Under the pieces are notes generated by a model. That model ran no database searches, had not been told where the DNA came from, and saw only the letters and a program-made list of their open reading frames with translations. Positions 6,020 through 64,000 of a stretch of DNA of 64,000 bases are shown here, piece after piece; positions within the stretch are counted from its first letter, which is position 1; each line of letters begins with the position of its first letter. The position numbers were made by a program, and so were the translations under genes. The stretch comes from Salminus brasiliensis (lineage: Eukaryota; Chordata; Actinopteri; Characiformes; Bryconidae): positions 90,071,507 to 90,135,506 of the forward strand of contig NC_132878.1 in NCBI RefSeq assembly GCF_030463535.1, given 5' to 3'.

Positions 6020-6558
6020 TTAATTTAGCATGCATAATGTGACTGTATCATCATAGCTATAAACCCTAATACCTGGATACAAGGGCTCAGTGAAGGTGGT
6101 GTGGAAGGTATATGTGTGGTATACCCTGTCAGGGGAAATAATATAAAAGGAGAGTGTGCCAGCCTGACAGTCTACATAAATCCCCATTCTTTTGGAGGGG
6201 TTGGGAGTAGGAATGACAGTCTCCTTGCCATTGTAACACACATAATACCCATAGTCATCTGAACAGAACAGAATCCAAGATTTGTTATTTGTGCCTAGTG
6301 TGCAGTCTCTCCCACGTCCTTTCCTGTTGATGCCTTTGTATGTCACTCCTATGTAAACAACGTCCCCTGTCCACTCTGCTTCCCAGTAAAACCGAGCCTT
6401 GCTCAAGCTTTCTCTGCACAAAACCTGAGCATAGTACTCAAACCGATCTGGGTGATCGGGGCAAGGCTGCTCCCCTTTCGTCATTGTCACCTTTTTGCTC
6501 CCCGTCAGTGACAGGGTTCGGTGTGCTGTGTTCGGGTCTAGTGTGATCTCACAGGCAT
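6020..6558 (-). CDS. B30.2 (PRY-SPRY) terminal exon of the NLR
   Basis: This exon encodes a complete PRY-SPRY domain: the PRY part begins [14 protein letters not shown], followed by SPRY blocks [44 protein letters not shown] and [12 protein letters not shown]. It ends LCMLN and TAA. The acceptor at 6558 continues the split Tyr codon from the 47-nt exon. B30.2 domains bind proteins or ligands in TRIMs and fish NLRs and often evolve quickly. The exon is intact and is the intact counterpart of the fused remnant at 1241-1481. Confidence 0.93.
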
Positions 6559-9500
6559 CTGAAGAAAAAACGACAGAAAGGTAAAACCTTCCACTTTCCT
6601 CCATGACTGGATGCACTACTACTACTTCTACTACATTACTGCTGATAAATAGTCTGCGTCTTGTGGTATATAGCCTCTAAACACTGAAAACCCAAACATT
6701 ATGGGACAGTCCCAAGACTTTTGCCATGTCCCATGGAAACTACTAAACATACATACTGGATATAGGAGACATTGTTTGTTTCCTTATGATAAATGACAAA
6801 TTATGATTATGATAAATTCACCCTTGCTTTGTGAGTCATTGCTGATATCACTAACTGTTGTTTTTGGGGGGTCTTTTCAGCTTCCACAATATTTCTGTCA
6901 TCAACTGATTTTGTCTTTGGCCCACCTGTTCAATGTTTAGTAGTGCATCACTGATTTCTTTCTTTTTCAGGAAATTTCAATATGTTGTATTAAATATAGC
7001 CTTTGCTTGTGCAATGGCTCTGATTGAGTCCCCCTCTTTTCTGGCTTCAAAATGGATTGCTTTTCTTCCATAGACAACTCTGCAGTCTTTGTCTTGGTTT
7101 ATCCCTTTCAACAATAAATGCAGTCAATGGGCCCTATTTTACACCCTGCGCAAGGCGCGTCACAATGCCATCTTATGATCTGAAACTCAAATAATAAAGG
7201 ATTACTAATGATCAATATTAATTAATCCTTTATTAGTAATAATATTAATACGGGAAACTAATAAAGGATTATCTTATCTTATCTTATCTTAAATGTCTGA
7301 AGTGTATACCAAAAACAAAAAAAAATGTCATTCCAATACTTTCAGAGGGGGCACTAAATGTGTAAGAACCTAAAATGTGATCTTTCATGTTCAAATAGCT
7401 CTGATTCTTTAAATAAACAATATTAATTACCATTTAATATACAAACAAAGATCACACTTACACTTCTGAAGTCCTGGTTTATTTCTGCACTTGCCACCAT
7501 ATTCCATTCTGTAGGAAAACAGAAAACTAGTAAAAACTGTAATGGCTGCACCAAGACTATTCAAGCTTTAGGCCAATCTGAATAGCTTCGGAAAATAAAC
7601 TATAATGAACTGTTTTAGTTTGAAGACACAACACATTCCATTTTTATTCCATTTTTATTCTCACCTCAGTTTCTTCAATTTACAGCAAGGATCATCCAGT
7701 ATAGTTGAAAGCTGTCTCAAACCATATTCCCCTGGGTGATTGTAGCTGATGTCAAGCTCTTTTAACTCTGAATTGTTTGAACTCAGAGCTAAACCAAGAG
7801 CAGAACAGCCTTCTTCTGTAATGCGACACCCTGAAAGACTGATGAAAAAATTACTTCATTAACACAAGGACCAGTAATATATTTGTTATTAAGATAGTTA
7901 AGATATAGAAAGTGTAATACATCTAAAATAAATCTATAAATCTTTGGTTACATTTAACATTCTGTATGATTCCCAAAAGACTTAATAATCTACAAATCTG
8001 CCTATACATTGTTGCTTTTTTGCTTTTCACACTACTGTACTTTAATTATACTCTTGAAATAGTTTGATGTGAAAAACCCAAAACAGCATCCATTTTGGAG
8101 GTGCCTGAATTATCATGTTATGCTTAAAGTTTCTAAAATGACTTGTCTGACTAACTGTACTAATGCTACACTCCACATGACCAGTTGGGTCTGTTTACTA
8201 AACTGAAAGTCCCTTACTCTTTCAGCACATTAGTGTTACGTTCCATGCCACTACTTACCCTAGTCTCTGCAGTTTGCACTGTGGATCCTGAAGGCCCACA
8301 CAAAGCAGTTTCACGCCTGAATCCTGCAGATCATTGTCTCTCAGCTCTAATTCTACCAAGCAAGACTGGGAACTCAAGACTGAGGCTAGGTCTGAGCAAC
8401 AACTGTCTGTGAGATTGCACCAGCACAGACTGCAATAGAGAAGATTATTTATAGGTATACTCTTTTTTACATGTGTTTTCATCCACATACCATATATCTG
8501 TCTTATGTGTGTTTTTAAAAGCAAATAAAATTTACTTTAACTTATTAAAAATACTAAAACATACAATATTAACACATTAATGTACCTCAGTTTCTGTAGT
8601 TTGCAGTTTGGGCTTTGCAATGCAGAACATAGCAGTTTCACTCCTGAATCTCCAATGTAATTATTACTAAGATCCATCTCTCTCAGGTGTGGATTTGCTG
8701 ATTCCAGAACTGAGGCAAGAGTTTCACATGCCACTTCCAGAATGCAAACACTGGCAAGTCTACAAGGAACAAATAGCATCAGACATTGTATAACAACAAA
8801 TAATACACAATATGTCCAAATGTTGGTGGACACCCTTTAAGTTGTTACCATTGCTACTTTAAAATAATTTAAATACAAGTATAACCTTATAGTGTTCAGT
8901 TTGCAGTCTGGATTCATCAGTCCAGCACAGAGAAGTTCTACTCCAGAATGGTCAAGGTTGTTGTAGCTGAGATCAAGTTTTTCCAGTTTGCAGTTTGGAT
9001 GTGTCAGTCCATCACAGAGCTGCTTAATGCCCGAGTCTCCCAGCTTGTTGTAGCTCAGATCCAACTCTCTCAAGGAAGATTTGGGTGTTTGCAGGGCAGC
9101 TCTTAAGGCTTCACAAGATTCATTTGTCAGGTCACATCTGTCCAATCTGTAAAGTGTTAGTTCATATATAGTTCAGTGATATAATATGCTTGACCCCACA
9201 ATGCATTCATTTTATTGTTGCTAAATGAAATACTAGAAAGGCCTACAGATGACCACAGATGTTCAGTTTGTTCCTGTAGAATGATTTAGTGCCCATCAGA
9301 GTTTATGTTTAACCCTAATCTTAACGCACCTGATTCAGTTAACGAAAGATTCTCAGAACCATCTCTCCTGGGTGACAGCTCGCCAGGATCAAGGTTAGGC
9401 AGCCATGCTGTAGAGGCTTTCTTATAGTATATTTCCTTTTCAGCACTTGATGTTCAAAAACATATTTTATGTATATAGTGCTATATTTACTACTTCATCC

Positions 9501-12500
9501 ATGCCACACCAAAATACAATAATGCAACCATTTAGTACCACAGAGAGGGGCAAATTCAGGCCCAAGGACAGTGCAACCAACCACTGCTGGAAAAATCAGC
9601 ATCTTAACATAAAAAGGACAGAGGCAAAATCCCAGATCCTAGATGCAGCATTCTTTAAAAAGCCCCAAATTAATACTTCTGTAAATTGAACCAAGGTCAC
9701 TTTTGCCTACTTTACTTATGTTACAAGTAGTTTAACTAGGTTTTCAGTGGAATTAAAGCCAACACTGTAACCTCCAAGTGCCAAAACTTACAATATCAGT
9801 TTATTGACATATTCATTTCTGCTCCTGGCAGGACCAAGCTTGACCAACATCAAATTTGCATACTTCGGGGTAATAGTACAGCAGTGGCCAGGCACAAAGG
9901 GTTTAAGCAGGAAGCAATGAATATATATATGGAAGAATCTACCTATAGTGAATTACAATCTACCAATTGTGCTCCCAAAGGCTGATGTTGCAGCCGTTTC
10001 TGAAAGCCAAATGTGGGGATGGGCTCAAAGCCAAACCAAAAAATGTAATATGCACAGCGCCAACATGTTAATATTTTGGATGTTTTCAAGACTTTACCTG
10101 TAGGATTTTTTCCTCTCTTTAGACAAGAGCATATACTAGGTGTATGTATAGGTACATGCAAGCCAACCTAATACTAATTCTTAGTAGAGATGTTTAATAA
10201 GCATAACATTATCTCGCTCAATTGCGATAATGACAAACATTTAGTTTCATTTTTACTCATTGTGGTGTATGAACTGCACGATGAATTATACAGCAAAGCT
10301 TGGCTTTCTTAGTCTGCTGAAACCACAGCAAGAGGACTGAGGTAATCATGCCCCACCCATAATTATTTTATCCCCTAATGTCTTGTTCAGAAATATGTCA
10401 CATTACGGAAGAAAATGTGCTCAGGTTTCTACTTCACACTGACTTCAGCTTACCTAAGTCTCTCCAGTTTACAGTGCATACTTGTCAATCCAGCAGAAAG
10501 CTGCTTCACTCCTGAGTCTTTCATGCTGTTGCAGCCAAGATCCAGCTCTTTTAGGCGTGAATTTACAGACTGGAATACTGAGGCCATCTGTTCGCAAGAT
10601 TGTTCAGAGAAGTTGACACCAGACAATCTGGAAACAGATGAAAATCAACTTTAAAAAAATCACTATGATCTTCAATTATTTAATATGAAGCTTAATATTG
10701 TGGAGTTTTCATTAAGATTTTGTTGTAGCATTTTTCCTTTGCACAATTAATTATACAGCAATACAGCAACCTTATAATTATATATATTCCCTGGTGCATG
10801 GTCAATTCATTTTCAGTATTTTTTCTATATGTTGTGCACAGTTCACAGTATTTTTAATCAAAGATTTTCATATGAAATGCTTCTAGAGTATGATATGGTA
10901 CAAACTCACATTTTTTGGCAAATAGAGCAAGAGCATGTAATGAAGATAAAGTTATTAATTTATATACGTTAGCCTCATCGCAGTTGAGACAGATTATACT
11001 GAAGCTTGTACAGGCAGAACACTTACAGGTAATAACAGTGAATTCTTGCATTATATCTTACTTTAGAAGCACAGGTTTCACATACAAGCTTAAATTATTG
11101 TACTAAAGCACAGAAATGCATATACTGTTTAGAACAAATATGGGAATCCACTCCAACATCAATATTAATTTAAATACTTAAATACAAACCCAAGCATCTG
11201 AAGTTTGCAGTGTGGACTCATTAGACTGTCACAAAGCAGTTTCACTCCTATATGTTCTAGTCTGTTATGGTTGAGAGTCAGTTTCTTTAGTTTACAGTGT
11301 GTATCTGAGAGCCCAGCACAGAGAAGCTTGACCCCCAAATCTCCCAGATTATTGAAGCTGAGGTCCAGTTCTGTCAGGTGTGAGTTAGGTGATTGGAGAA
11401 CTGAAGCAAGAGTTTCACATGATTCATCAGTGAGACTGGATCCAGCGAGACTGTGGAAGGTCAGAATTTAGTTTAAATGATCACAGAGATTAAACATTTA
11501 CAGCACTTAAACATACATGCACATCCAAAGACTTGGTTTTAGAGATGCACTGATTGCAATTTTCCTGGCCAATTCTGATTTAATGTTTTTTGGGGTTTTT
11601 TTTCAAAATTTTTAGATTTTTGAGGGAGGTTGAAAACCAATGAGCACTCTTTAAAACGACGCATGTAGTTTAACACTTACTTTGATAATACTACTGTTCA
11701 GAGCTGAATATGATGACACTAAAGGGATCCATATCGAGGTCAGCTATAGTGTGTGGGGCTGTGCTGGTGCTGTTGGCGCCCTTATGTGATACACAAATGT
11801 AAAACAGACTGGCACAGAATCGGACCCATCACCGATCAAGTCTGATCATGCTAATAACGATGGTACCTGTTACCAGCCGATCAATCGGTGCATCTCCACT
11901 TGATTTACAATATAATGATGACAGAAGTTACATTTCACAGTGTAATAAACATGATTAAATGCTATATTTTAATTTGATGCTATGAGGCTGAGTAGAAAAC
12001 AGAAACTTACATGGCTCTTTTTGAAGTTCTCACCACTGGCAACAACCTCTGATATCCTTCAGGAGATGTGTTGCACATCTTCAAGTCAAATTCATCCATC
12101 ACATCCTCTGATGTTAGCAGTACATAAGCCAGAGCAGAACACTGGTCAGGTTTGAGCTCTGTCTCTGAATGCCTGCCTGATCTCAAGAAAGTACGTATTT
12201 CTTCCACCAAAGAGTTGTAATTCAATTCATTCAGACAGTGGAAAAGATTAATGGTCCTTTCTGCTGACGACTCATTTCTGATCTTCTCCTTTATGTAGTT
12301 CACCGTTTCCTCAGAGCTTTCCTCACATCTTTCCTCACATCTTTCCTCACATCTTCTGGAAAACAGACCTCTCAAAAGAACCTGATTGGATTCAAGTGAG
12401 AGACCAAGAAGAAAGCGAAGGAAAAGGTCAAGGTGTCCGTTCTCACTCCGCAGGGCTCTGTCCACAGCACTCTTGTGCACATGTGACATCGTCACTGCAC

Positions 12501-15500
12501 TGCTCTGACTCTCTGCGTCTTGACTGAAAATGTTCACATTGCTGTTCGCAAAGGTGAGCTGCACATACACTGCAGCAAGGTGCTCCTGAATACTCAGGTG
12601 TACAAAGCAGAAGACCCTCTCCCAGTACAGTCCAAACTCTTCTTTGAAGATTTCTGTGCAAATTGCAGAGTACTCCGTCGCTTTGCTGACATCAATGCCA
12701 CATTCTGTCAGATCTTTCTCATAGAAAATTAGATTTCCCTTCTCCAACTGTAGAAATGCTAGTTTTCCAAGTTTGGTGATCATCTCCTCATCAGACTCTG
12801 TCAGGACCATGTTGTTCTGAAGCACTCCATGGTACTTCTTGTTCTTCAAGTGTGTTTGGATGAGGAGGAAGTGGGTGTACATCTGAGTCAGAGTTTTGGG
12901 CACTTCTGCACAGTCAGATTGATCTAACATCTTCTCCAGGACTGTTGCAGATATCCAACAGAAGACCGGTATGTGGCACATAATGTGGAGGCTTCTTGAG
13001 GATTTTATGTGTGCAACAATTTTGTCAGCAAGGCCTGATTTGCTAAACCTCTTTCTAAAATACTCCTCTTTCTCAGAGTCATTAAATCCTCTGACCTCCG
13101 TAACCTGGTCAACACATTCAGGAGGGATTTGACTAGTGGCTGCTGGTCGGGAGGTTATCCAGAGGAGAGCAGAAGGAAGTATATTCCCCCGAATGAGATT
13201 TGTTAGCAGCACATCCACAGGGACTTTCTTTGTCAGGTCACAGCACATTTCATTGTTCTTGAAATCAAGAGGAAGACGGCATTCATCCAGACCATCGAAG
13301 ATAAACACGGTTTTTACCTCCTCACTGCTAATAGTTTGTAGTTCTTTGAGCTCTGGAAAGTACTGATGAAGAAGCTCAATTGCACTATATTTGCTGTTTC
13401 TCTTCAAATTCAGATCACGGAAAGGGAGCGGGAACATGAAGTGAATATCCTGATTTTCCTTTCCTTCTGCCCAGTCCAAGATGAATTTATGCACAGAGAC
13501 TGTCTTTCCAATCCCAGCGATGCCCTTAGTTAGCACGGTTCTGATCCGTTTTCTTTGTCCAGGTAAAGGTTTAAAGATATCATGACATTGTATTGCATTT
13601 TCTTGAATGTCTTTGATCTTTGTTGATTCCTCAATCAATCTGACTTCGTGTTCTACATTGACACCTCCACTTCCTCCTTCTGTGATCAACAGCTTTGTGA
13701 AAATATCATTTAACAGGATTTGATTTCCTTGCTCAGAATTTCCCTCACGTATGCATTCAAATTTAGATTTAAGATGGCTCTGTAGTTTAATTTTAAGATG
13801 ATCCTGGATACCTTTAAGAAGACTCCCTACAGAATGTGAAACATCTAATTTAGTAATAGTAATAAAAGTACAACATGTATTATGCACATTCTAGACATTT
13901 CTGATTCTGATTCTGGCTGCAGGAAAAAATGTTACTTTGAGGCTGATATTTGTAGCTGTAGTGCAAATGGTCTGCATTACAGTACCTTAATTTTACCTAA
14001 AGTCAGCTTGTAATGTTTTACACATTGAACACAGGGACACAGGAATAAATGTAATCCTACCTTTCTCCAAAATGACTTTGAGAGTTATTTTCAGGGCACC
14101 CTCTGATCCAAATGTATCCAGAACATGCTTAGATAATTCATGGACATCATGGGTTTCCTTACGAGCTTCAAAGCATTCTGGATAATTCTGACATAGATAC
14201 CTCATAAACTCATCTTTGTCTATGTTGTTTAGTGTCTGCTCAAGTAAACACAATGTGTCAAGTTCCTGGAGCACCTGTAAGCAAAAGAAGGATAACAAAA
14301 AGGATGATTAATACAGAATAAAGCTGCTGATTATACTCACTCTGATGGACAACACTCTTTTTTGTCACAGTGATCGAGAAAAAAGAACTGCTGAAACTAA
14401 CCAAGAACATTTTGCACAATTATTCACACTTCGATAAAAAGCATCATGCTTTTTTTTTTCACAGAATTGAAAACACAAAAACTAGATTCAGAGCTTTATA
14501 GTTTCTGAGCCAGACAGCAGTAATTCACAATTAATCATCCACAGCAGCAGTTTTATAAAAGAAAAACAACACTTTCTACAGCATTTGTATTTTCACATTT
14601 CGATTACTTACTGGACCAGAGCTAGCAGTCAGAACGGAAACTAATATTAACTAGTACTTCTAATGATGCACAACTGACAGTCATCTAAATCCAATGAGTA
14701 CGTTTTGAAATTGGTCTATAAAAACATGTTCTGCATTGTATAAAACAAATAAATTAATAAGTAAACTGACCTAAACAAATTTGTTTACCTGGCCAAAAAT
14801 AAAATGTAATATTAACTATAATCAATTTCAACTAATATCAACAATTAACAGTTTTAAGATTGTATTTGGTGACCTTCTCATATTCACACAGCTGCATCCT
14901 CTGTGAATTTCTCAATGTTTACCCTAAGGTGGTTTTGAGTACTGCATTGTGTGGAAGTCACCGAATTCATTCCTTATTCCTTCACGTTAATTTATTCTCC
15001 TTCTGGTGGGGTCATGTCATGCAAAAATGGCAACTTTACAATAGAAGGACACATATTAACTCTTATGGAAATTATTTTGAAAGTATTTATGTTCATCCTG
15101 AAATTCAGACGCAGATTCAAATAATTTCAACAAGTGAGAAGTGGCAAAAATTGATGTTTTTTGTATATACGTTACGGTAAATCTATACGTCTATAAATCT
15201 AAGTCTATAACCCCTACATGCATTTTAATTATATTATAATATATAATATTCTAAAATAAATGTGGGGTGTCTGACACGCCCCTTTTTTACTAATCATATT
15301 TATTTGGGAGCAGATATTTAATGTATTCACATTGGGACATTCAACACTCAAAGTGCCATGAGTTATTTGGTGCATTTCTGCATTATTTTATAATTATTGT
15401 TACAACATACTCTTTAACTTGTTTTAATTAACCCTCAGTTAAATGTGTAATTGTAACATCTGCACACACCCCAGTTTTGCCTTAATTGTCATTAATGGTA

Positions 15501-18500
15501 GGTGCTGATAACAAATGTTACATTCACATTTGAAGCAGAGACTGACAGGTTACTACCGTAAAAATAGTATGAATCTTGCTGAAGTACTTTTAAATTCATG
15601 TTGTGTCCTGCTCTTCTCAACTGCATAAAATAAATAGATCTCTGTAACATTTTCAAACTGCATAACATTTCCTGTCCAAGCAGCGGATCTCTTACCCTGG
15701 CTCGTAATGTGTAGCTTTTGTTGTGGCCTCTGTGTTCCAGAGTTGCACACTGTTTACAGATCAGCGTCTGGTCTGTCCTGCAAAAAACATCCACAGGTAA
15801 GCAGTGCTCTGGACAGAGCTTCTGCTCCTGGTCTGCACTCAGCTCTGGTGGTGTGTATCCATGAGGTGCTGTTGCTGAGGTCTGCCAATGTTTCCCACTG
15901 GTCTTTTCTTCCTGGTTGAAGTTCAACGGTGGGTTGAGTGACTTGTTACTCTTCATAGAGATGATGCTAGGTGAGGGTGACTGAGGTCTCTCATTTTCAG
16001 CACTGAAACCGAACACAGAGACAGACCCAGTGAACTACCAGAGTCACTAATCATAAATGAAATAATCTCAGAAATTCATGTTGACCTGTTTTCAGTTTCT
16101 GATGCACACAGCATTTCAGAATAAACTTTACATTCATTTACATTAACATCCATTCAAAGTTAAGAACACCCCACCCACAAAAACTAATGTCCGTCAGCAA
16201 AACAGTGTATTATAGATGACTAATAGATCAATTCAGCCACAGCCTCCAAACTCTTCAACTGTTCAAAATGTAACTTCTATAAACATGTCGTATGCAATAA
16301 TCTTCATTATTTTATTTCCAGACTGCTGCACCACAGACCTTTTTTCAGTGCTCATTTGACCTTGGCAAAGATTCTTCTTCCAGTCCATGGATGTATCACT
16401 TGCCATGGACACACAGCTGGAAACAGGTGAAGCCGGTCTATCTGCCTAGAAACAAACAGCTTCTTAACTTTTGTCATATGAAAATGAAGCATTGCTAAGA
16501 AATGAGGTTCAAATATACATGCATGCATTGACTTGCTGGAAATTAAATATTCTCCTAAGTCTCTCCTAAATCTCTTACCTCAGCCTTTATAGTGTAGCTT
16601 ATACTGTGGCCTTGGTGTTTCTCTGTGTTCCACATCAGCGTCTGATCTGTCTTGCAATGCATTTCCACAGGTAAGCTGTGCTCTGGACAGAGCTTCTGCT
16701 CCTGGTCTGCACTCAGCTCTGGTGGTGTGTATCCATGAGGTGCTGTTGCTGAGGTCTGCCAACTTTCACCACTGGTCTTTTCTTCCTGGTTGAAGTTCAA
16801 CGGTGGGTTGAGTGACTTGTTACTCTTCATAGAGATGATGCTAGGTGAGGGTGACTGAGGTCTCTCATTGTCAGCACTAAAACCGAACAGAGACAGACCC
16901 AGTGAACTACCAGAGTCACTAATCATAAATGAAATAATCTCAGAAATTCATGTTGACCTGTTTTCAGTTTCTGATGCACACCGCATTTCAGAATAAACTT
17001 TACATTCATTTACATTGCCTTCTGCTGTAAAGTCACAATTTTGAATATGCATGTTTTTACTGGACAGTGGCAATATTGAGATTCCATGAGCAAAGTCCTG
17101 CTTAAATAATACCTACTCTCTTTATTATGCATGACCATTTATTTCTCAGGTCCAGTGTGGAGCCAATCACTAACGTGGCAGTGTGATCCAGCATTGCGTG
17201 GCAAATGATCCAGTCACAGAGATGAATCTAAAGCCTAATGTTTCCACTTAGTTATTTTATTTTTATTTCTTATTGCATTCTAGGAGGCAGTTTACACCAC
17301 TGCATTAACAGCGTTTTTGGAGGTCGGATCACATTAAGATTTCACTTGACCGCATGAAAGGCCAGGTGTAAACAATCCCAGGATGCAGAAATACATGTTC
17401 CTTGGTGTTATGGATATTGGGTTCTCTCACTCTCTCTTTCCCTCGCTCTCTCTTGTGTTTTCAACACGTTTAATAGAAAACTGTGAATTTTATTTGATCA
17501 GGTATGAAGTGAAAAGCAATCAGTCCTACATTAATCCTTCTGATTTAAATGAACTGACTTTGAATGAACTCCTAGTCCATTGCCACAAGCTTTCAAGCAT
17601 CTACCACCCGGTTTGAACAAATGTATTGGGGCAACACTGCAGAGACAGTGTCAGGATTTGACTGCAATCTGAAGCTAAACTGAAAAGGGGAGCACTGTGT
17701 GATGTAGGCCTTTGTACTCTTTGTGCTTCTAAAGACTTTTGAAGGGGCTTGTAGACACATGCATATAACCCCACCCACAAAAACTAATGTCCGTCAGCAA
17801 AGCAGTGTATTATAGATGACTAATAGATCAATTCAGCCACAGCCTCCAAACTCTTCAACTGTTCAAAATGTAACTTCTATAAACATGTCGTATGCAATAA
17901 TCTTCATTATTTTATTTCCAGACTGCTGCACCACAGACCTTTTTTCAGTGCTCATTTGACCTTGGCAAAGATTCTTCTTCCAGTCCATGGATGTATCACT
18001 TGCCATGGACACACAGCTGGAAACAGGTGAAGCCGGTCTATCTGCCTAGAAACAAACAGCAGAAACAAACAGCTTCTTAACCTTTGTCATATGAAAATGA
18101 AGCATTGCTAAGAAATGAGGTTCAAATATACATGCATGCATTGACTTACTGGAAATTAAATATTCTCCTAAGTCTCTCCTAAATCTCTTACCTCGGCCTT
18201 TATAGTGTAGCTTATACTGTGGCCTTGGTGTTTCTCTGTGTTCCACATCAGCGTCTGATCTGTCTTGCAATGCATTTCCACAGGTAAGCTGTGCTCTGGA
18301 CAGAGCTTCTGCTCCTGGTCTGCACTCAGCTCTGGTGGTGTGTATCCATGAGGTGCTGTTGCTGAGGTCTGCCAACTTTCACCACTGGTCTTTTCTTCCT
18401 GGTTGAAGTTCAACGGTGGGTTGAGTGACTTGTTACTCTTCATAGAGATGATGCTAGGTGAGGGTGACTGAGGTCTCTCATTGTCAGCACTAAAACCGAA

Positions 18501-21500
18501 CACAGAGACAGACCCAGTGAACTACCAGAGTCACTAATCATAAATGAAATAATCTCAGAAATTCATGTTGACCTGTTTTCAGTTTCTGATGCACACCGCA
18601 TTTCAGAATAAACTTTACATTCATTTACATTGCCTTCTGCTGTAAAGTCACAATTTTGAATATGCATGTTTTTACTGGACAGTGGCAATATTGAGATTCC
18701 ATGAGCAAAGTCCTGCTTAAATAATACCTACTCTCTTTATTATGCATGACCATTTATTTCTCAGGTCCAGTGTGGACCCAATCACTAACGTGGCAGTGTG
18801 ATCCAGCATTGCGTGGCAAATGATCCAGTCACAGAGATGAATCTAATGCCTAATGTTTCCACTTAGTTGTTTTATTTTTATTTTTATTTCTTATTGCATT
18901 CTAGGAGGCAGTTTACACCTCTGCATTAACAGCGTTTTTGGAGATCGGATCACATTAAGATTTCACTTGACCGCATGAAAGGCCAGGTGTAAACAATCCC
19001 AGGATGCAGAAATACATGTGCCGAAAAAGTTAACACAAGTGGTCTTGGTGTTATGGATATTGGGTTCTCTCTCTCTCTTTCCCTCGCTCTCTCTCTCTCT
19101 CTCGCTCTCTCTTGTGTTTTCAACACATTTAATAGAAAACTGTGAAATTTTATTTGACCAGGTATGAAGTGAAAAGCAATCAGTCCTACATGAATCCTTC
19201 TGATTTAAATGAACTGACTTTGAATGAACTCCTAGTCCATTGCCACAAGCTTTCAAGCATCTACCACCTGGTTTGAACAAATGTATTGGGGCAACACTGC
19301 AGAGACAGTGTCAGGATTTGACTGCAATCTGAAGCTAAACTGAAAAGGGGAGCACTGTGTGATGTAGGCCTTTGTACTCTTTGTGCTTCTAAAGACTTTT
19401 GAAGGGGCTTGTAGACACATGCATATAACCCCACCCACAAAAACTAATGTCCATCAGCAAAGCAGTGTATTATAGATGACTAATAGATCAATTCAGCCAC
19501 AGCCTCCAAACTCTTCAACTGTCCAAAATGTAACTTCTATAAACATGTCGTATGCAATAATCTTCATTATTTTATTTCCAGACTGCTGCACCACAGACCT
19601 TTTTTCAGTGCTCATTTGACCTTGGCAAAGATTCTTCTTCCAGTCCATGGATGTATCACTTGCCATGGACACACAGCTGGAAACAGGTGAAGCCGGTCTA
19701 TCTGCCTAGAAACAAACAGCAGAAACAAACAGCTTCTTAACCTTTGTCATATGAAAATGAAGCATTGCTAAGAAATGAGGTTCAAATATACATGCATGCA
19801 TTGACTTGCTGGAAATTAAATATTCTCCTAAGTCTCTCCTAAATCTCTTACCTCGGCCTTTATAGTGTAGCTTATACTGTGGCCTTGGTGTTTCTCTGTG
19901 TTCCACATCAGCGTCTGATCTGTCTTGCAATGCATTTCCACAGGTAAGCTGTGCTCTGGACAGAGCTTCTGCTCCTGGTCTGCACTCAGCTCTGGTGGTG
20001 TGTATCCATGAGGTGCTGTTGCTGAGGTCTGCCAACTTTCACCACTGGTCTTTTCTTCCTGGTTGAAGTTCAACGGTGGGTTGAGTGACTTGTTACTCTT
20101 CATAGAGATGATGCTAGGTGAGGGTGACCGAGGTCTCTCATTGTCAGCACTAAAACCGAACACAGAGACAGACCCAGTGAACTACCAGAGTCACTAATCA
20201 TAAATGAAATAATCTCAGAAATTCATGTTGACCTGTTTTCAGTTTCTGATGCACACCGCATTTCAGAATAAACTTTACATTCATTTACATTGCCTTCTGC
20301 TGTAAAGTCACAATTTTGAATATGCATGTTTTTACTGGACAGTGGCAATATTGAGATTCCATGAGCAAAGTCCTGCTTAAATAATACCTACTCTCTTTAT
20401 TATGCATGACCATTTATTTCTCAGGTCCAGTGTGGAGCCAATCACTAACGTGGCAGTGTGATCCAGCATTGCGTGGCAAATGATCCAGTCATAGAGATGA
20501 ATCTAATGCCTAATGTTTCCACTTAGTTGTTTTATTTTTATTTTTATTTCTTATTGCATTCTAAGAGGCAGTTTACACAAGTTGTCTTGGTGTTTTGAAT
20601 ATTGGGTTCTCTCTCTATCTCTCTCTCTCTCTCACAATTTTTATTTGACCAGGTATGAAGTGAAAAGCAATCAGTCCTACATTAATCCTTCTGATTTAAA
20701 TAAACTGACTTTGAATGAACTCCTAGTCCATTGCCACAAGCTTTCAAGCATCTACCACCCGGTTTGAACAAATGTATTGGGGCAACACTGCAGAGACAGT
20801 GTCAGGATTTGACTGCAATCTGAAGCTAAACTGAAAAGGGGAGCACTGTGTGATGTAGGCCTTTGTGCTTCTAAATACTTTTTAAGGGGCTTGTATATAA
20901 CCCCACCCACAAAACCTAATGTCCGTCAGCAAAGCAGTGTATTATAGATGACTAATAGATCAATTCACAGTCACAGCCTCCAAACTCTTCAACTGTTCAA
21001 AAGGTACAGTAAGAGACTGCTGCATCACAGACCTTTTTTCAGTGCAAAAATTCTTCTTCCAGTCCATGGATGTATCACTTGCCATGGACACACAGCTGGA
21101 AACAGGTGAAGCCGGTCTATATGCCTAGAAACAAACAGCAGAAACAAACAGCCTGTTAACCTTTGTCATATGAAAATGAAGCATTGCTCATGAATGAGGT
21201 CCAAATATAATAAAACTCACCACAATAACCTACTGTGAGGACAGTCATACCATTACACCTTCTATTACATATGGAAGTATATATGAGCCAAAATAAAGAT
21301 GAAAATGTAAGATCCAAAATAACAATGTTATCCTATGTTTGAATTTAAATGTTTCACTCATGCACGCACACTTAAGCTCAGAATTCAAATACAACACATT
21401 TGCCATTTGGTAGACTTCATTTGAATGCTTTATGAGTGGCTTTATTTAAATGTATGAACTTAAACATCAGACAACAACTGTGTCAAAATGATCATTAAAA

Positions 21501-22411
21501 TGTTACTTGCCTAGTATGCATTTACACTCAATGACAATGTGTTTGAAATCATTTTCAAACTCAACACCACAGTAGAATAATGCCAAAATTCAAATGTTAA
21601 AGGGTAAAGAGCTCCTTCCAGCTTTACAATAAAATGATCAACCCTGCTGCGCTCACTCTGTCTCAAAAAATGCAATCCGAGTCGAATGCATTTAATTTTC
21701 CAAGGTCTTTCATCTCAGTCAGCCAATCAGGTTCCCATCTTTCCAATCAGCTTGATTTGCATTTTTTTATATATATATTGACAAAGTATTTTTTTAGTGT
21801 GGTCCTGAGTTTATTAAATTACATGAAATTTGTTCATTCAAATTGGGAAATGCATTCTCATTTAATAAAGCCACTTGTAAAGCATTCACATCTTTGTGTA
21901 AATGAAATATCAATAGAAATCTGCCAAATAGTGAATGTAAATGGAGTTACTGAAGTTGAAACTGAATTCTGAGTTTAAATGTGCATGTATGAGTGGAACA
22001 TTGTCATTTTGCATTTTACATTTTCATTTTCATGTTGGTACTGATATGCTTCAATAGTTACAATGCTAAGCTAGACTATGCTACATGGCCACATGTGGGC
22101 CATCTGAATGGCATAAACCAGCCGATAAAAGCAGAGCTTTTTTACCACAAGCCCTATGTAAAATAAAAAAACAGTGTGTTCCATTCAGAGGTAAAATAAC
22201 AAGGTTTTAAATAGGCTTGGAAAACTGCATCTGAGCATTTTTAACCCCAACCAAAGCCACAAACACACTGGCTCAATAAATGCATTCTGTGGCGTCAATA
22301 AAGCATCTTTCATTTGTAATTTGAGTATAAGGTTGAGTTGAAGTGAAAGGGTTAAATTTCACTTGAACTGGAACTGAGCTCAGTTGACTAGAGACAATAA
22401 CGACTTACCAT
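6020..22411 (-). CDS. NLR immune receptor: B-box modules, PYD-like, FISNA-NACHT, LRR, B30.2
   Basis: Cytoplasmic NLRC3/NLRP-like sensor of the large fish family. Coding exons in transcript order: 22409-22411, 21033-21124, 19852-20149, 19599-19705, 18192-18489, 17939-18045, 16579-16876, 16339-16445, 15696-16002, 14061-14274, 12011-13826, 11190-11450, 10454-10627, 8886-9146, 8586-8759, 8259-8429, 7665-7838, 7462-7508, 6020-6558. Every junction has GT/AG and all phases agree. The total is 5,448 nt, 1,815 codons plus stop, with no internal stop. The start is the weak point: ATG is the last codon of its exon, with a good context (GAGATG then G from the next exon). An unseen exon is possible. Family knowledge suggests NACHT oligomerisation and LRR/B30.2 ligand sensing; the ligand is unknown. 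The 5' modules are the unusual part. Confidence 0.82.
7462..7508 (-). CDS. 47-nt linker exon between LRR and B30.2
   Basis: Too short for ORF calling. It reads [15 protein letters not shown] plus one base, with acceptor ACAG and donor GTAAGT. Fish NLR-B30.2 proteins carry an equivalent hEHGGExRhKPG linker before PRY. Phase matches on both sides: AG|A in front and T|AT behind, giving Tyr. Confidence 0.8.
7665..11450 (-). CDS. LRR exon series (six exons)
   Basis: Six leucine-rich-repeat exons of the NLR: 11190-11450 (261 nt), 10454-10627 (174), 8886-9146 (261), 8586-8759 (174), 8259-8429 (171), 7665-7838 (174). All join in the same phase, with the codon split after two bases. Each encodes RI-type NLR repeats such as [30 protein letters not shown] and VKLLCAGL. 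The 7838 acceptor was chosen over a downstream AG because only it keeps phase and restores the expected GLSGC start. The 261-nt exons hold an extra repeat and look like a fusion or internal duplication of the 174-nt unit. The LRR region normally provides ligand recognition and autoinhibition. Confidence 0.9.
8806..8870. mobile_element. Remnant of the TA-flanked MITE family
   Basis: One end of the MITE described at 29592-30054 (cacaatatgtccaaatgttg, then gtggacaccc) lies in the intron, ending about 15 bp from the 3' splice boundary of the LRR exon at 8886. The rest of the element is missing. Confidence 0.65.
12011..13826 (-). CDS. FISNA-NACHT exon of the NLR
   Basis: A single 1,816-nt exon, the typical size for fish NLRs. 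It begins with the FISNA segment ([27 protein letters not shown]). NACHT follows, with Walker A GIAGIGKT at 13501-13524, Walker B FIFDGLDE near 13281-13306, and the sensor motif TSRPAA. A helical NHD-like region follows ([21 protein letters not shown]), then [16 protein letters not shown]. The ATPase residues are all present, so nucleotide-driven oligomerisation is plausible. Near the end an acidic linker carries three exact copies of a 12-bp unit (12318-12353). Acceptor TGTAG| and donor |GTAAGT agree with the neighbouring phases. Confidence 0.95.
12318..12353 (-). repeat. Coding 12-bp tandem repeat (3 copies)
   Basis: tttcctcacatc occurs three times in exact tandem and encodes repeated CEER-type residues ([14 protein letters not shown]) in the linker between the NACHT region and the LRRs. 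The 12-bp unit keeps the frame, so copy number can vary without breaking the gene. Confidence 0.9.
14061..14274 (-). CDS. PYD-like death-fold exon of the NLR
   Basis: This 214-nt exon begins [18 protein letters not shown] and ends [17 protein letters not shown]. The spacing of leucines and the closing ALxITLxxLxK helix resemble pyrin domains at the N-terminus of fish NLRs, which recruit ASC-type adaptors. The central part ([16 protein letters not shown]) is divergent, so another death-fold type is possible. Phase 0 entry and one leftover base join it correctly to the B-box exon and the NACHT exon. Confidence 0.65.
15696..16002 (-). CDS. B-box exon copy 1 (all zinc ligands present)
   Basis: 307-nt exon. 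Its first part is the fish NLR N-terminal repeat ([25 protein letters not shown]). It then encodes a B-box: [20 protein letters not shown] followed by [12 protein letters not shown]. The ligand series C-H-C-D-C-C-H-H is complete. Acceptor TTTCAG at 16003 and donor GTAAGAG at 15695 fit the phase. B-boxes mediate higher-order assembly in TRIM proteins; whether they do so here is inference. It is the copy nearest the PYD-like exon. Confidence 0.85.
16339..16445 (-). CDS. RPASP module exon, copy 1
   Basis: 107-nt exon encoding [20 protein letters not shown] then [15 protein letters not shown]. This is the classic short N-terminal repeat of fish NLRC3-like proteins. Acceptor TTTCTAG, donor GTCTGTGG (weaker than the others). 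It starts in phase 0 and ends with AG, which the next B-box exon completes to Ser. Confidence 0.75.
16579..16876 (-). CDS. B-box exon copy 2 (CxxC lost)
   Basis: 298-nt exon, 9 nt shorter than copy 1 and still in frame. The B-box reads [20 protein letters not shown] then WNTEKHQGH: the first C/H and C/D ligands and the final H..H remain, but the CKQC pair is gone. Folding as a normal two-zinc B-box is therefore doubtful. Splice sites and phases match copy 1. Confidence 0.82.
17939..18045 (-). CDS. RPASP module exon, copy 2
   Basis: 107 nt, same coding sequence and splice sites as the exon at 16339-16445. It lies 1,660 bp from copy 3. Confidence 0.75.
18192..18489 (-). CDS. B-box exon copy 3 (CxxC lost)
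   Basis: 298 nt. It encodes the same protein as copy 2, including loss of the Cys pair. Position and flanks repeat at a 1,660-bp offset in copy 4. Confidence 0.82.
19599..19705 (-). CDS. RPASP module exon, copy 3
   Basis: 107 nt, essentially identical to copies 1 and 2, with acceptor TTTCTAG and donor GTCTGTGG retained. Confidence 0.75.
19852..20149 (-). CDS. B-box exon copy 4 (CxxC lost)
   Basis: 298 nt. It differs from copy 3 by at least one missense base: ERPRSPSP instead of ERPQSPSP. The Cys pair is missing as in copies 2 and 3. It is the first B-box in protein order. Confidence 0.82.
21033..21124 (-). CDS. RPASP module exon, copy 4 (shortened)
   Basis: 92 nt, 15 nt shorter than the other copies by an in-frame loss of the CQGQM segment. 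It begins AYRPASP instead of ADRPASP. It is the first module exon and joins the ATG-bearing exon at 22409 in phase 0. Confidence 0.7.
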
Positions 22412-22502
22412 CTCGACCACAGGCTCTCTCGAATCCAGCTGGGCCTTTTGTACCTTCTTTATCTTCTTTTTCCAACTTCGTCTCTTGCCTTTTCATTACT
22501 CT
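22409..22502 (-). CDS. Probable first coding exon of the NLR (ATG is its last codon)
   Basis: The donor GTAAGT directly follows ATG at 22409-22411, and only the frame that ends in this ATG joins the next exon without a stop. A likely acceptor is ATACAG at 22503. An earlier ATG in the exon (about 22495) opens a 30-codon frame that hits TAG just after the next junction, so it would be an upstream ORF. Most of the exon is therefore 5' UTR. Not proven; a missing exon would change the start. Confidence 0.45.
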
Positions 22503-22558
22503 CTGTATCACAGGCAGGCACCTTTATGCACATGCCTGTGATCTTCAGCCACCTTCAT

Positions 22559-22560
<2 letters not shown>

Positions 22561-22603
<43 letters not shown>
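22561..22603. repeat. (CA)n microsatellite
   Basis: About 21 uninterrupted CA units in the putative first intron of the NLR gene. Confidence 0.97.
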
Positions 22604-22604
<1 letters not shown>

Positions 22605-22660
22605 AAAAGGTGTTCTGGTCATCTTTAGATAGGACAATGAAGAGTTTCATAAAGCAAGTG

Positions 22661-23086
22661 AGCGATGTGAAAATTATGAAAATAAGTAGAAATATTCACA
22701 AACAAACAAACAAAGACAATGTCATGTAAAGGACAGTGTTACATTACAACCATTTCTGAGGTTGTCCATTTGGTTAGACAATCAAATGCTGCCATCTACT
22801 GTTCACACTGATTAAATCCAACAGAAGCTTCCAGAAAATCAACATGTAGGAACACACACCATCACCTTTAAACCTGTCGATTTTAGCCATTTTTTGCCAT
22901 TTTTTGCCATCATTTAAATAGTTATTCTTTACATTGTGTTAACTTTTAAGATGAATGGACCATCAGAAATGCTCCAGAATAACATCTTTAACATTTCCTA
23001 AGTTTAGAAGGTATTTCCTTCTTTTGGAGATGCCAAAATCTGCCATTCATACATACTTGTATATATTTATGGAGATATGTATCTTC

Positions 23087-23126
<40 letters not shown>

Positions 23127-23335
23127 TTTAACATCATTATTCTCCATAGGTGTAAGCTTATGGTCTGTATTTAAGCTAAACTGAGCATAAAGCAAATGTA
23201 CATCTACATGTTTAAGGACAGACTATGATCTGTGTCACATGTCTGTGTAAGTCGTGGTTCAGTGCAGTCAAGCAGTTCCAGCAGACCAACCAGCACAACC
23301 ACTCTTCATCACTGGAGCCATGTAACATTTACACG
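22661..23335. repeat. Dispersed duplicate, copy 1 (partner 24396-25099)
   Basis: About 0.67 kb that recurs at 24396-25099. Shared blocks include acaaacaaacaaacaaagac, gaggttgtccatttggttag and gtcgtggttcagtgcagtca. It contains an (AAT)n tract at about 23088-23126. No coding sequence is recognisable. Confidence 0.85.
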
Positions 23336-23421
23336 ACAGCTGAAAACAGCTGAACAGAAGCACTGTCCCAAAGCTCCAGCTATGCCAAACTGTTCATACA
23401 GACATTTAAAAAAGAACTTAC

Positions 23422-23470
23422 GTATTACTGAAGAAACTCCCATGTATTAGGAGCTGTGAAAGAGGCTCCA
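23422..23470 (-). other. Possible 5' UTR exon of the NLR gene
   Basis: Downstream of the ISRE-like motif the minus strand reads into a short segment ending at a strong donor (TAC|GTAAGT at 23421). It contains a small upstream ATG (23441-23443) that opens MGVSSVI before the donor. The transcription start is not determined. The link to the exon at 22409-22502 is inferred from spacing and strand only. Confidence 0.35.
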
Positions 23471-23476
23471 CCGTTT

Positions 23477-23488
23477 ACTTTCGTTTTC
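23477..23488 (-). promoter_or_regulatory. ISRE / IRF-binding consensus
   Basis: The minus strand reads GAAAACGAAAGT, a full match to the interferon-stimulated response element GAAANNGAAASY. It is followed by TAAAC and lies just upstream of the possible first exon. An interferon-inducible promoter would suit an NLR, but function is inferred from the motif. A (GGA)n run lies just beside it at 23499-23515. Confidence 0.5.
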
Positions 23489-23519
23489 CGAGGAGGAGGA
23501 GGAGGAGGAGGAGGGGAGC

Positions 23520-25560
23520 GAGACAAACCGAAAGTCTGGACGTCTGGACTAGTTTACCTATTGGACCTATGCAGTCAGTCTGAGTGAGCATTTCAGCAAA
23601 AATAAAAAAATACATACAAATACAAATCAATTACTAAAACAAACCATTACAATTACTACTGCTCAGTACAGTACAGTACAGTACAGTGCTTACATACCCC
23701 AGAAATGTGTGGATCATTACTCCCCCATTACATACAGTGAGACAGTCAGCTTAATAATGTAGGATTTCGAGGTGGTAGGAAATGAACCATGGTAGGTGGG
23801 TGATTATTCAAATACTTTTTTATCCTCAGGTTATAAATGCATAATAGAAATACTTTACTACAAAAGAAATAGCTTAGGTATTACACATATTGTTTATTAC
23901 ACCCCCCCAGAAATCTGCACCAATATCATAATTAACACAACACAAATTTGCTTTAAATACAAGTACTTTACCATCTTGGGATTTTCCAAAACCTGACTTC
24001 CTTTGTGTATATAGTGCAACATATATAAATATATATAAATATATAATTGTGCAACATATTTCTGTAAAGAACTTTTAAAGGTAACATGTGTTTATGTTGT
24101 AATCATAGAAACAAAGACTGATAGGGGAGCACATGTCAGCCATGAGAGAAGAGTGATATTTTAATGTCTGGAAAAGTCATTTATGACACCGGGTAAAGAC
24201 ACCTGGTGATGATACTCACAGGTCTTTCATTTTATCTTTGCACTTTTTCGAAATTCAAACTACACTTCCTAAAACTAATGTTCACTGTTTTAGTCAATAT
24301 GGCTGTAAGACATCAGTAGAGCTCTAGTAGAGCTCATCACTCCACTGCTGACCTCAGTGTGGAGTTCATGCATAGGTCATGTGCTTCAGTCTGCAGCGAT
24401 GTGAAAAATATGAAAAAGAATAGAAATATTCACAAACAAACAAACAAAGACAATGTCATGTAAAGTACAGTGTTACATTACAACCATTTCTGAGGTTGTC
24501 CATTTGGTTAGACAATCAAATGCTGCCATCTACTGTTCACACTGATTAAATCCAACAGAAGCTTCCAGAAAATCAACATGTGGGAACACACACCATCACC
24601 TTTAAACCTGTCGATTTTGGCCATTTTCCATTTTTTGCCATCAGTTAAATTGTTATTCTTTACATTATGTGAGATTTCAATATCAATGGACCATAGGAAA
24701 TGTTCCAGAATATCATTAACAAAAGGTCAGAAGGTATTTTCCTTCTTTTGGAGATGCCAAAATCTGCCATTCATCATTGAACTTGATAAGAAGTGAATTG
24801 AGCAAGATACATATCTCCAAAAATGGCATATTATATAAAAATGGGATATATATCTTGCTCAATTCACTTAAAATTAAAAGGTTCCACTTCAAAGCAACAA
24901 CATCAATAATAATAATAATAATAATAATAATCATCATCATCATCATCATCTCCTTAGATGTAAGCTTATGGTCTCTATTTAGGCTAAACTGAGTCGAAGT
25001 CATCCATGTCTGTGTATGTCGTGGTTCAGTGCAGTCAAGCAGTTCCAGCAGACCAACCAGCACAACCACTTTCCATCACAGGATCCATGTAACATTTACA
25101 GTAGAGCTCTAGTAGAGCTCACCACTCCACTGCTGACCTCTGTGTGGAGTTCATGCATAGGTCTTGTGCTCCAGTCTTCCAGGGCTAAGCTCCGCCCTTC
25201 ACCTTAGGCTTGTCTCCAGCACACAGGTGCTGTTCATAATTGGACTGATTAGGATTTCTCTTAACACCTCAGTTTGGGTGCTCTTACTTATTGCTGATTG
25301 GTTCGTGGTGTCTTGGAGAGTATTTTGCTTTTGACCCTCTGCCTTGTAATTGGACCTGAGTTATGGATTTGCTTAAGTTGGATTTGTTGGATTTGCCTAA
25401 ATGATGCAATCATCTCACTATACACCCGAATCTCAGAGGATGGAATATACAGGCCAAAGCAGCCAATTTGCCAAGTCTGTTTTGAGAGTGAAGGGAGGCC
25501 CTACCCAGAATAGTGTTCCTATTAAAGGATTAAAGTGAGTGCAGTTATCCAGTGCTGTGC
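23520..25560. other. Non-coding spacer with nested duplications
   Basis: No exon recognised. An 80-bp block (agagctctagtagagctcat..., 24316-24397) recurs at 25100-25181 and so brackets the 24396-25099 duplicate. ATT/ATC microsatellites lie at 24905-24950. Confidence 0.6.
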
Positions 25561-25599
25561 AGTTGCAGGACAACTTTGGTGAAGCTGATTAATGCATCC

Positions 25600-25790
25600 A
25601 CTAGGTGTCACCCAATTATCATTTAAGCAATTATTAACCATAACCATAATCATCCATAGGTAACATCTCCAGGTTATAGAGGAGGTTAAAGGCCAGTGGC
25701 AGCTTGCCGGCCCGGGTATCGGATCCACAACCCAGTCCACAATAGCCGGAGCTCTAACCGCTGAGCCACCACTGCCCAGTGGCTGATTAC
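25600..25790. mobile_element. SINE-like repeat fragment
   Basis: It ends gagctctaaccgctgagcca then ccactgcccag, the same tail seen near 49925 and, in related form, near 51705. This looks like a dispersed fish SINE-like element; the family name is not established here. Confidence 0.5.
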
Positions 25791-25800
25791 AGACATGATA

Positions 25801-26210
25801 CACTATATGTCCAAATGTTTGTGGACACTCCTTCTAAAGAATGGATTCAGCTACTTTAAGTTGCACCCATTGCTGAAACAAACATGCAAATGCGCACACA
25901 CAGCTTGTCTAGTCCTTGTAGAGAAGCACTGCCAATAGAAAAGGACTCTCTGGAGCAGATAACCGTGCAGAACCTGTTGTGAACATTCCTAATGTCTAGT
26001 TGTAGGCTTGGGTAGCACAAAGCCCACCCCCAGCATTAAGCTCTGGAACGGTGTTCTTTGGAATGATGGTTGGTGCTCCATCGAATACTTTTGGGATAAG
26101 TTGGGGAGTTGGGAATGAAGTGAGATGGTGGTCCTGCAACATCGTGACCTCCTTAAAACTCTCATCAGTGAATGCAATCAAAGTGTCCCAATATTTTTGT
26201 CCATATCGCA
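25801..26210. mobile_element. TA-flanked MITE, copy 1
   Basis: It starts cactatatgtccaaatgttt and ends with the inverted motif (tttttgtccatatcgca), about 410 bp, non-coding. TA precedes it. It belongs to the same family as 28390-28812, 29592-30054, 33523-33930 and 42323-42735. Confidence 0.85.
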
Positions 26211-26431
26211 AAGTACATTGTTGGGAAGGTAGTTAGTGGTTCCCTTACAGCACATTTAGACACATTAATTCTACTTCTTTATTAAATCAGTATGGTTTCT
26301 TCAAATTCAGGAGTCCAGAAGTAACAATAAAGCCACTGCTTCTGAGTTGTACTTATAAGCGTACTTCAGATTTCAGTGAGAACAAGCTCTACAGTCTGCA
26401 TGGCAAGAGAGAAGAAATGGAAATATATTTT

Positions 26432-26448
26432 TTTATTTTATATTTATT
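26432..26448 (-). terminator. Candidate polyadenylation signals of gapdhs
   Basis: Two AATAAA hexamers on the minus strand (26432-26437 and 26443-26448) lie about 350 nt past the gapdhs stop. Confidence 0.45.
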
Positions 26449-26797
26449 ATCTCTTAATCTGTGTTACAATAGCCTTTATCTCTGCACTTTTCAATTCATA
26501 ACACCAATATAACATGGTAACATCCAGTATGGTAACATCTACAGCAATGCTTGTGGGGCGACACAGACACAGATACTGTCAAAGTCAAAACCGCCTCCAA
26601 GTGGGACTTGTTTTCATAAAGGAAAAAACTAACACTCGCACACAGACTACTACAGAGACTAGCTCGTCTTGTAGAGAGGGGTGGGAGGATGATAGGGCGT
26701 GTTACTATGGCTTGAGCTATGACATTAATTAAGTGCATGTAAAAGAAGGAATGGTGGTCCCAACTGGGCTTCTCGGCGTGTCCGGAGACGCAGACAT

Positions 26798-32214
<5,417 letters not shown>

Positions 32215-40194: not shown

Positions 40195-40485
40195 CTGAAT
40201 CTTTGTCAAGGACCAAGATGCGTCAGAGCATCTCCAAAACATCAGGCAGGTCTCGTGGGGTTTTCTGGTATGCAAGTGGTCCAGTGAAAATGGCCAGTGA
40301 CAAGGTCATGCACATCTAAGGCTCACTGATGCAGTCCATAGAGGCCCCACCTGACCACCTACAGGACTTAAAGCATCTGCTGCTAACATCTTGGTGCCAT
40401 ATGCCACACGTATTCAGAGGCCTTGTGCATCAAATGGACAGATCTGTTGTGGCGGTACAATATTAGGTACTAATGTTATGGCGGA
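40195..40485 (+). mobile_element. Internally deleted Tc1-like transposon, 3' part
   Basis: Scattered plus-strand transposase pieces are recognisable: the N-terminal part near gcatctccaaaac, then the C-terminal stretch encoding LQDLKHLLLTSWCHMPH and FRGLVHQMDRSVVA. The end gttatggcggatcggtgtat matches the common terminus of this family. Most of the catalytic domain is missing. Confidence 0.7.
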
Positions 40486-40521
40486 TCGGTGTATGCATAT
40501 GTAAATACACACACACACATC

Positions 40522-40522
<1 letters not shown>

Positions 40523-40555
<33 letters not shown>

Positions 40556-40564
40556 GCATGTCTG

Positions 40565-40607
<43 letters not shown>

Positions 40608-40748
40608 GCATGTCTGTCTATCTATCTATCTGCATGTCTGTCTGTCTATCTATCTATGCATGTCTGTCTATCTATCTATATCTCTATATATCTGTCTGTC
40701 TGTCTATCTATCTATCTATGCATGTCTGTCTATCTATCTATATCTCTG

Positions 40749-40795
<47 letters not shown>

Positions 40796-40912
40796 GTCTG
40801 TCTATCTATCTATCTATATCTCTATATATCTATCTGTCTGTCTACCTATCTATCTATATCTCCATATATCTATCTGTCTGTCTATCTATCTATATCTCTA
40901 TATATCTGTCTG

Positions 40913-40943
<31 letters not shown>

Positions 40944-41314
40944 GTCTGTCTATCTATCTATCTATATCTCTATATATCTGTCTGTCTACCTATCTATCTA
41001 TATCTCTATATATCTATCTGTCTGTCTATCTATCTATCTATGCATGTCTGTCTATCTATCTATCTATGTATATCTCCATATATCTATCTGTCTGTCTATC
41101 TATCTATCTATGCATGTCTGTCTATCTATCTATCTATATCTCTATATATCTATCTGTCTGTCTACCTATCTATCTATATCTCCATATATCTATCTGTCTG
41201 TCTATCTATCTATCTATATCTCCATATATCTATCTGTCTGTCTACCTATCTATCTATATCTCCATATATCTATCTGTCTGTCTATCTATATCTCTATATA
41301 TCTGTCTGTCTGTC
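40523..41314. repeat. Complex TATC (GATA) tetranucleotide array, 0.8 kb
   Basis: TCTA units alternate with TGTC, TGCATGTC and TCTATATATC variants in higher-order blocks (for instance tctgtctgtctacctatcta recurs). All three plus frames stay open over long stretches as YLSIYLS-type translations, a by-product of the repeat and not protein coding. Confidence 0.97.

Positions 41315-43868: not shown

Positions 43869-64000
<20,132 letters not shown>

Follow-up and report, generated by a model that had tools for sequence, protein, structure and literature searches.

The locus and the exon array

The window, a stretch of 64,000 nucleotides at positions 90071507-90135506 of contig C1 in the Salminus brasiliensis assembly (1.07 Gb, 103 contigs), carries on its minus strand an NLR gene that begins with an array of repeated exons. 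In the direction of transcription the order is array (21124-15696), a single exon (14274-14061), the FISNA-NACHT exon (13826-12011), leucine-rich repeat (LRR) exons down to 7664 and a B30.2 frame (6676-6020). Judged by its domain profiles, the make-up of FISNA, NACHT and B30.2 is that of fish. The array consists of four head-to-tail pairs of a peptide exon (A) and an exon encoding a peptide and a canonical or degenerate B-box (B), listed here from its 5' end:

A1, 21033-21124, minus strand: first peptide exon of the array, 92 nucleotides, 15 nucleotides shorter than the other A exons (splice sites, frame, alignment)
B1, 19852-20149, minus strand: peptide and degenerate B-box exon, 298 nucleotides (zf-B_box, 15.8 bits)
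A2, 19599-19705, minus strand: peptide exon, 107 nucleotides (splice sites, frame)
B2, 18192-18489, minus strand: peptide and degenerate B-box exon, 298 nucleotides (zf-B_box, 15.8 bits)
A3, 17939-18045, minus strand: peptide exon, 107 nucleotides (splice sites, frame)
B3, 16579-16876, minus strand: peptide and degenerate B-box exon, 298 nucleotides (zf-B_box, 15.8 bits; TRIM29 chain 2csv in PDB, E = 0.014)
A4, 16339-16445, minus strand: peptide exon, 107 nucleotides (splice sites, frame)
B4, 15696-16002, minus strand: peptide and canonical B-box exon, 307 nucleotides (zf-B_box, 35.5 bits; TRIM29 chain 2csv in PDB, E = 7.9e-7)

An AG acceptor and a GT donor were found at each of the eight exons; the donors of the A exons (AG|GTCTGT) were weak by eye. 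The A exons run from phase 0 to phase 2 and the B exons from phase 2 to phase 0, making each pair a phase 0-0 cassette, and the four pairs comprise 130, 135, 135 and 138 codons. All ten combinations of an exon Ai with an exon Bj (i<=j) gave length sums divisible by three. The eight spliced exons form 538 stop-free codons, which continue without a stop into the next two exons. Since any A-to-B junction keeps the frame, the repeat number could be changed by exchange or by splicing. A first-pass annotation, made from the letters of the window, had described four such pairs between 15696 and 21124, each adding codons without a shift of phase; its sizes and coordinates proved exact when the splice sites were checked, and the neutral phase was borne out by the frame sums and the 538-codon read-through.

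The likeness of the units is far beyond chance. Homology between them extends from about 21209 to 15687, and a self-alignment by blastn gave a match of 2,811 nucleotides at 97%. Among units 1-3 the identities were 97.8-100% for the A exons, 99.3-99.7% for the B exons and 96.3-98.6% for the introns between A and B; for units 2 and 3, identical aligned bases numbered 107/107 in A, 297/298 in B and 1047/1062 (with 5 gaps) in the intron. The A-B intron of unit 4 measures 336 nucleotides against 883-1109 in the other units, with the join at 16144/16168.

Zinc ligands of the B-box exons

The type-2 B-box pattern and the ligands of zinc sites I and II were taken from excerpts of the TRIM21 paper PMC5533445. 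A scan of all six frames of the window with this published pattern gave one complete type-2 zinc-ligand pattern, at 15723-15815 on the minus strand. This lies in B4, the copy proximal to NACHT, and none of B1-B3 matched. Ligands of B4 corresponding to those of TRIM21 B-box 2 are C63, H66, C82 and C85 for site I, and C74, D77, H90 and H93 for site II. In B1-B3 a Trp stands in place of C82 and residues 84-86, including C85, are gone, so that the second Cys pair of site I is absent. Profile scores divided the copies in the same way, with 35.5 bits for B4 and 15.8 bits for each of B1-B3 against a Pfam zf-B_box cut-off of 24.1 bits. The best PDB match of both B4 and B3 was TRIM29 chain 2csv, with E values of 7.9e-7 and 0.014, respectively.

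On these ligands and scores, the array is best described as one predicted B-box plus three remnants. The Cys pair was probably lost in B1-B3 and not gained in B4. The excerpted text of PMC5533445 gives site I of TRIM21 B-box 2 as occupied and site II as deemed incompletely saturated. The earlier description of four TRIM-like B-box segments before NACHT was consequently narrowed, as the canonical form is present in one of four copies by both pattern and profile. A B-box valency is unsupported because zinc site I has no second Cys pair in three of four copies.

The peptide repeat and its distribution in the genome

The intact repeated part of the array is a Ser/Pro peptide of about 30 residues, present twice per unit, once in exon A and once in the opening third of exon B. 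When exon A was aligned with the beginning of B, the score was 51, which was attained by 0 of 2000 shuffles. Each of the two also matched two peptides of other NLRs of the same genome, again with 0 of 2000 shuffles reaching the score in any of the four comparisons. Excerpts of Howe et al. 2016 (PMC4852459) describe N-terminal peptide repeats of about 30 amino acids, on single exons, in zebrafish NLR groups 2-4. The position and length of the peptide found here, and its being repeated, suggest that it is the same repeat.

Three other NLR loci were chosen because their matches to B4 were confined to the peptide part: one on the same contig (C1:98.25 Mb, 30 kb taken) and two on C18 (20 kb each; C18:34209301-34229300 and its paralogue at C18:34498101-34518100). 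Their NACHT exons are 52.5-58.0% identical to that of the window gene. A motif scan counted four peptide exons in the first C18 gene, three in its paralogue and two in the gene on C1, where a third peptide stretch is interrupted by a stop. In the first C18 gene a 719-nucleotide stretch with a peptide exon is repeated at 98.9% identity and a spacing of 608 nucleotides. In these three loci of 20-30 kb each, a search for a B-box with B3 as query gave only chance-like stretches (E 0.05 or worse) in which the ligands were absent. As the C18 genes have four vs three peptide exons and one tandem repeat, N-terminal exon number in this genome appears to change by tandem duplication also where no B-box is present. 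Read by eye, the C18 peptide exons are of phase 2-2, matching the donor of exon A and the acceptor of exon B (both phase 2). This points to exon B being a peptide exon extended by a B-box.

The genome was searched with exon B4, and 150 of 230 candidates were scored, so that the counts are lower bounds. At least 104 matches were obtained: the four copies in the window, 97 confined to query residues 32-100 (linker and B-box), and three in the peptide part only. Among these, both parts were spanned only by the four window copies; in this incomplete search of the species' own genome no second peptide-B-box exon was seen among the scored candidates. A RING in the same open frame was found in 25 of 26 B-box loci examined out of the 97, the remaining one (L035) being without a RING within 3.1 kb. 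With a 300-nucleotide DNA query taken from the array, five places in the genome were hit, all inside the window. As far as these matches indicate, the unusual part is the fusion of a peptide exon with a TRIM-type B-box, not the array itself. The first-pass annotation had placed the novelty in the in-frame expandable array; this was not upheld, given the peptide-exon arrays in the excerpts of PMC4852459 and in the three other NLRs, with two to four exons.

History of the array

Between B3 and B4, synonymous divergence (dS) was 0.03 over the first 58 aligned codons; in the remainder dS was 0.41 and nonsynonymous divergence (dN) 0.24. The front of B4 thus looks homogenised with the array, and its B-box half looks like an older branch. 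In units 1-3, 4 of 390 ungapped exon columns were variable vs 36 of 999 intron columns (Fisher p = 0.007), which suggests coding constraint on the exons.

Near-identical introns and a half-homogenised last copy fit amplification by unequal exchange. Of the earlier proposal that unequal crossing over alters copy number, the frame-keeping recent duplication is supported; the accompanying change in B-box valency is not, with one copy in four canonical.

Interpretation and alternatives

The reading that is considered probable, with some reserve, is that of a fish NLR-C gene with an N-terminal array of two-exon cassettes, in which the peptide tail varies with copy number and one canonical B-box lies beside NACHT. 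The Ser/Pro-rich peptide repeat of NLRs, about 30 residues long, would be encoded both by exon A and by the opening third of exon B. A linker and a TRIM-type B-box 2 would take up the remainder of exon B, an NLR peptide exon having presumably been fused to a B-box. The cassette would then have been amplified head to tail through unequal exchange or gene conversion, its phase 0-0 structure preserving the frame. The present array holds eight peptide motifs and one canonical B-box, which adjoins NACHT; all its exons are presumably used in the mRNA. The copies that were amplified would descend from a form whose high-affinity zinc site had no second Cys pair; copy number would therefore vary a tail of peptide motifs, probably flexible, and not B-box valency. 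By analogy with TRIM5alpha, the single B-box may fold and help self-association.

Several points weigh against this reading. All four copies share the site II ligands and the first pair of site I, and B1-B3 may retain a residual fold. A structure model of exon B4 was uninformative even on the canonical B-box (mean predicted local distance difference test score, pLDDT, 41.3; 4-row alignment) and silent on disorder of the tail. The spliced protein exceeded the cut-off of Pfam DUF5530 (33.4 bits vs 25), while no single stretch passed and the exons B1-B3 scored 14.5 bits each; the score is taken as a summing across repeats. The low exon variation could stem from gene conversion instead of selection. 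The restriction of the fusion within the genome rests on the 150 of 230 candidates scored, and the eight-exon message is predicted from genomic sequence. Finally, no convincing first coding exon was found, so that splicing may leave out part of the array, or the gene may be damaged. In the scan for that exon, positions 21125-26800 were searched for ATG-started phase-0 exons of 18-200 nucleotides with a GTRAG donor; two candidates (24 and 36 nucleotides) were obtained, neither convincing, and exons outside these limits were not sought. Translation may possibly start at an ATG within A1 (21083-21085).

The alternative that survives best, although it is regarded as unlikely, is that the last unit alone is used, either by splicing of an A exon straight to B4 or by a late translation start, the upstream units being relics of recent duplication. 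Every Ai-Bj junction would permit such splicing in frame, B4 alone passes as a B-box, the A donors look weak by eye, and the scan for a first exon gave nothing convincing; the splice sites, however, are preserved in all four units, and the exons of units 1-3 vary less than their introns.

A use of the degenerate copies as a refunctionalised B-box-like module, with the remaining zinc site II or a new binding surface, is rather improbable. It would agree with the invariant ligands and with the exon constraint, but the three copies are too similar to reveal selection on the B-box part alone, and site II is the incompletely saturated site in the excerpted account of TRIM21 (PMC5533445).

Four working B-boxes, which would form a TRIM-like, multivalent assembly domain able to expand at the front of the NLR, are very improbable. 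Four in-frame exons of common origin do carry a B-box or its remnant, and TRIM5alpha B-box 2 dimers and trimers build lattices according to excerpts of PMC4936894. Three of the four copies, however, fail the Pfam cut-off and the pattern and have no second Cys pair at site I, the occupied site in TRIM21 (PMC5533445, in excerpt). A valency of four was rejected on zinc ligands and profile scores. An assembly artefact in which one unit was falsely duplicated in tandem is hardly credible: the assembly shows an identity of about 99% between units 2 and 3, but substitutions and indels of up to 118 nucleotides separate the units, A1 and B4 have private changes, most of the A-B intron is gone from unit 4, and the array sits within a 99.4-Mb contig.

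An extended form of the preferred interpretation, in which an NLR captured a TRIM B-box via its own repeat exon, is put forward only tentatively. One working B-box would serve self-association and an array of peptides and relics, variable by copy number or splicing, would act as a tunable tail, with TRIM-like parts at both ends of the protein. If true, the joining of a B-box to the NLR N-terminal repeat would be a second TRIM-NLR exchange besides that of B30.2. The locus also shows N-terminal exon arrays in the course of change, with units that hardly differ within one gene, and with four peptide exons in one paralogue against three in the other.

Remaining features of the gene and its surroundings

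Downstream of the array the following features were identified:

14061-14274, minus strand: exon between the array and the FISNA-NACHT exon, earlier labelled PYD-like (splice and frame reading)
12011-13826, minus strand: FISNA-NACHT-WH-HD2 exon, 1816 nucleotides, open, Walker A GIAGIGKT (Pfam)
7664-11467, minus strand: LRR exon region, open stretches by eye at 11168-11467, 10453-10644, 8840-9172, 8540-8836, 8258-8536 and 7664-7855 (Pfam LRR)
6020-6676, minus strand: open frame with the B30.2 (PRY-SPRY) exon, which probably starts near 6558 (PRY 1.3e-16, SPRY 2.6e-14)

The candidate acceptor of the B30.2 exon near 6558 was picked by eye. Pfam matches of the exon at 12011-13826 were FISNA (6.2e-28), NACHT (1.4e-35), NLRC4_HD2 (4.4e-31) and NOD2_WH (1.3e-14). 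FISNA, NACHT, PRY and SPRY all scored above their cut-offs, and FISNA and NACHT lie together on a single large exon, as expected of fish NLR-C. Three LRR stretches were scanned and all gave Pfam matches, with LRR_6 over the cut-off in one and under it in two. The domains predicted earlier behind the array were in this way recovered as NACHT, B30.2 and, with the one passing stretch, LRR; PYD was not, as the Pfam death-fold families gave no match to the exon 14061-14274 at E<=10. A death-fold (PYD) exon is a feature of some NLR-C groups, but the PYD label of this exon is unsupported by Pfam and PDB sequence searches. Its top PDB match, to an ABC-F protein (0.0035), is regarded as chance. In one 10-kb locus searched, it resembled sequence that immediately precedes the NACHT exon of a different NLR in this genome (33% over 61 amino acids, E 4.3e-5).

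The Walker A motif GIAGIGKT corresponds to the NLR-C group 3 entry in Table 4 of PMC6988351, as excerpted. The end of the same exon is by eye nearer to groups 1, 2 or 5, unlike its group 3 Walker A. A 12-nucleotide tandem repeat of 4.2 copies lies within this exon at 12306-12355, keeping the frame and encoding a repeated CEER peptide.

Upstream of the array, a direct repeat of about 390 nucleotides occurs at 22661-23050 and 24395-24774 with 91% identity. Neighbouring genes on the minus strand at 26801-29541 and 53863-60123 resemble glyceraldehyde-3-phosphate dehydrogenase and a P-type cation ATPase. For the former, Gp_dh_C matched one of two stretches scanned (0.0011, under the cut-off), and for the latter, Cation_ATPase matched one of three (2.6e-6); the remainder was assigned by eye. 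Long open frames of low-complexity repeats at 40467-41530 on the plus strand are a simple-repeat artefact. The 5,000 bases immediately preceding the window are N in the assembly. Viral contigs and phage records contained no relative, as expected for fish DNA.

Comparison with known systems

The gene shares a B-box and B30.2 with finTRIM (RING-B-box-B30.2; van der Aa et al. 2009, PMC2657112, in excerpt), and excerpts of the same paper describe B30.2 as common to finTRIM and fish NLRs through exon shuffling. Unlike finTRIM, no RING pattern was found in any of the six frames of the window, and the B-box is attached to an NLR peptide and NACHT. Of the features of TRIM membership, a B-box was found in one of four copies and a RING was absent. 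As in TRIM5alpha, whose B-box 2 forms dimers and trimers according to the excerpts of PMC4936894, the canonical B-box 2 may serve for self-association; unlike TRIM5alpha, the window is without a RING pattern, and assembly of the NLR would be by analogy.

No paper on B-box exons in fish NLRs was found in the open-licence PMC literature, as judged by titles and the beginnings of abstracts; the words themselves occur in several of the papers so judged (e.g. PMC11218377, PMC10300353 and PMC3137616). Single B-box exons may occur in fish NLRC3-like annotations, as the first-pass annotation proposed. The text of PMC4852459 names a B-box once, for TRIM genes. Groups 2b and 3b have, in its excerpts, 'extensively duplicated' N-terminal repeats, and the paper proposes that members of the family have shuffled exons. 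An expandable N-terminal array is known in kind because such peptide-exon repeats are described in these excerpts. The window gene resembles the fish NLR-C (NLR-B30.2) genes portrayed there in its FISNA-NACHT exon, its LRR exons, its C-terminal B30.2 and its N-terminal repeats of about 30 amino acids in varied number. It differs from them in that its repeat unit consists of two exons, the second of which, exon B, adds a B-box.

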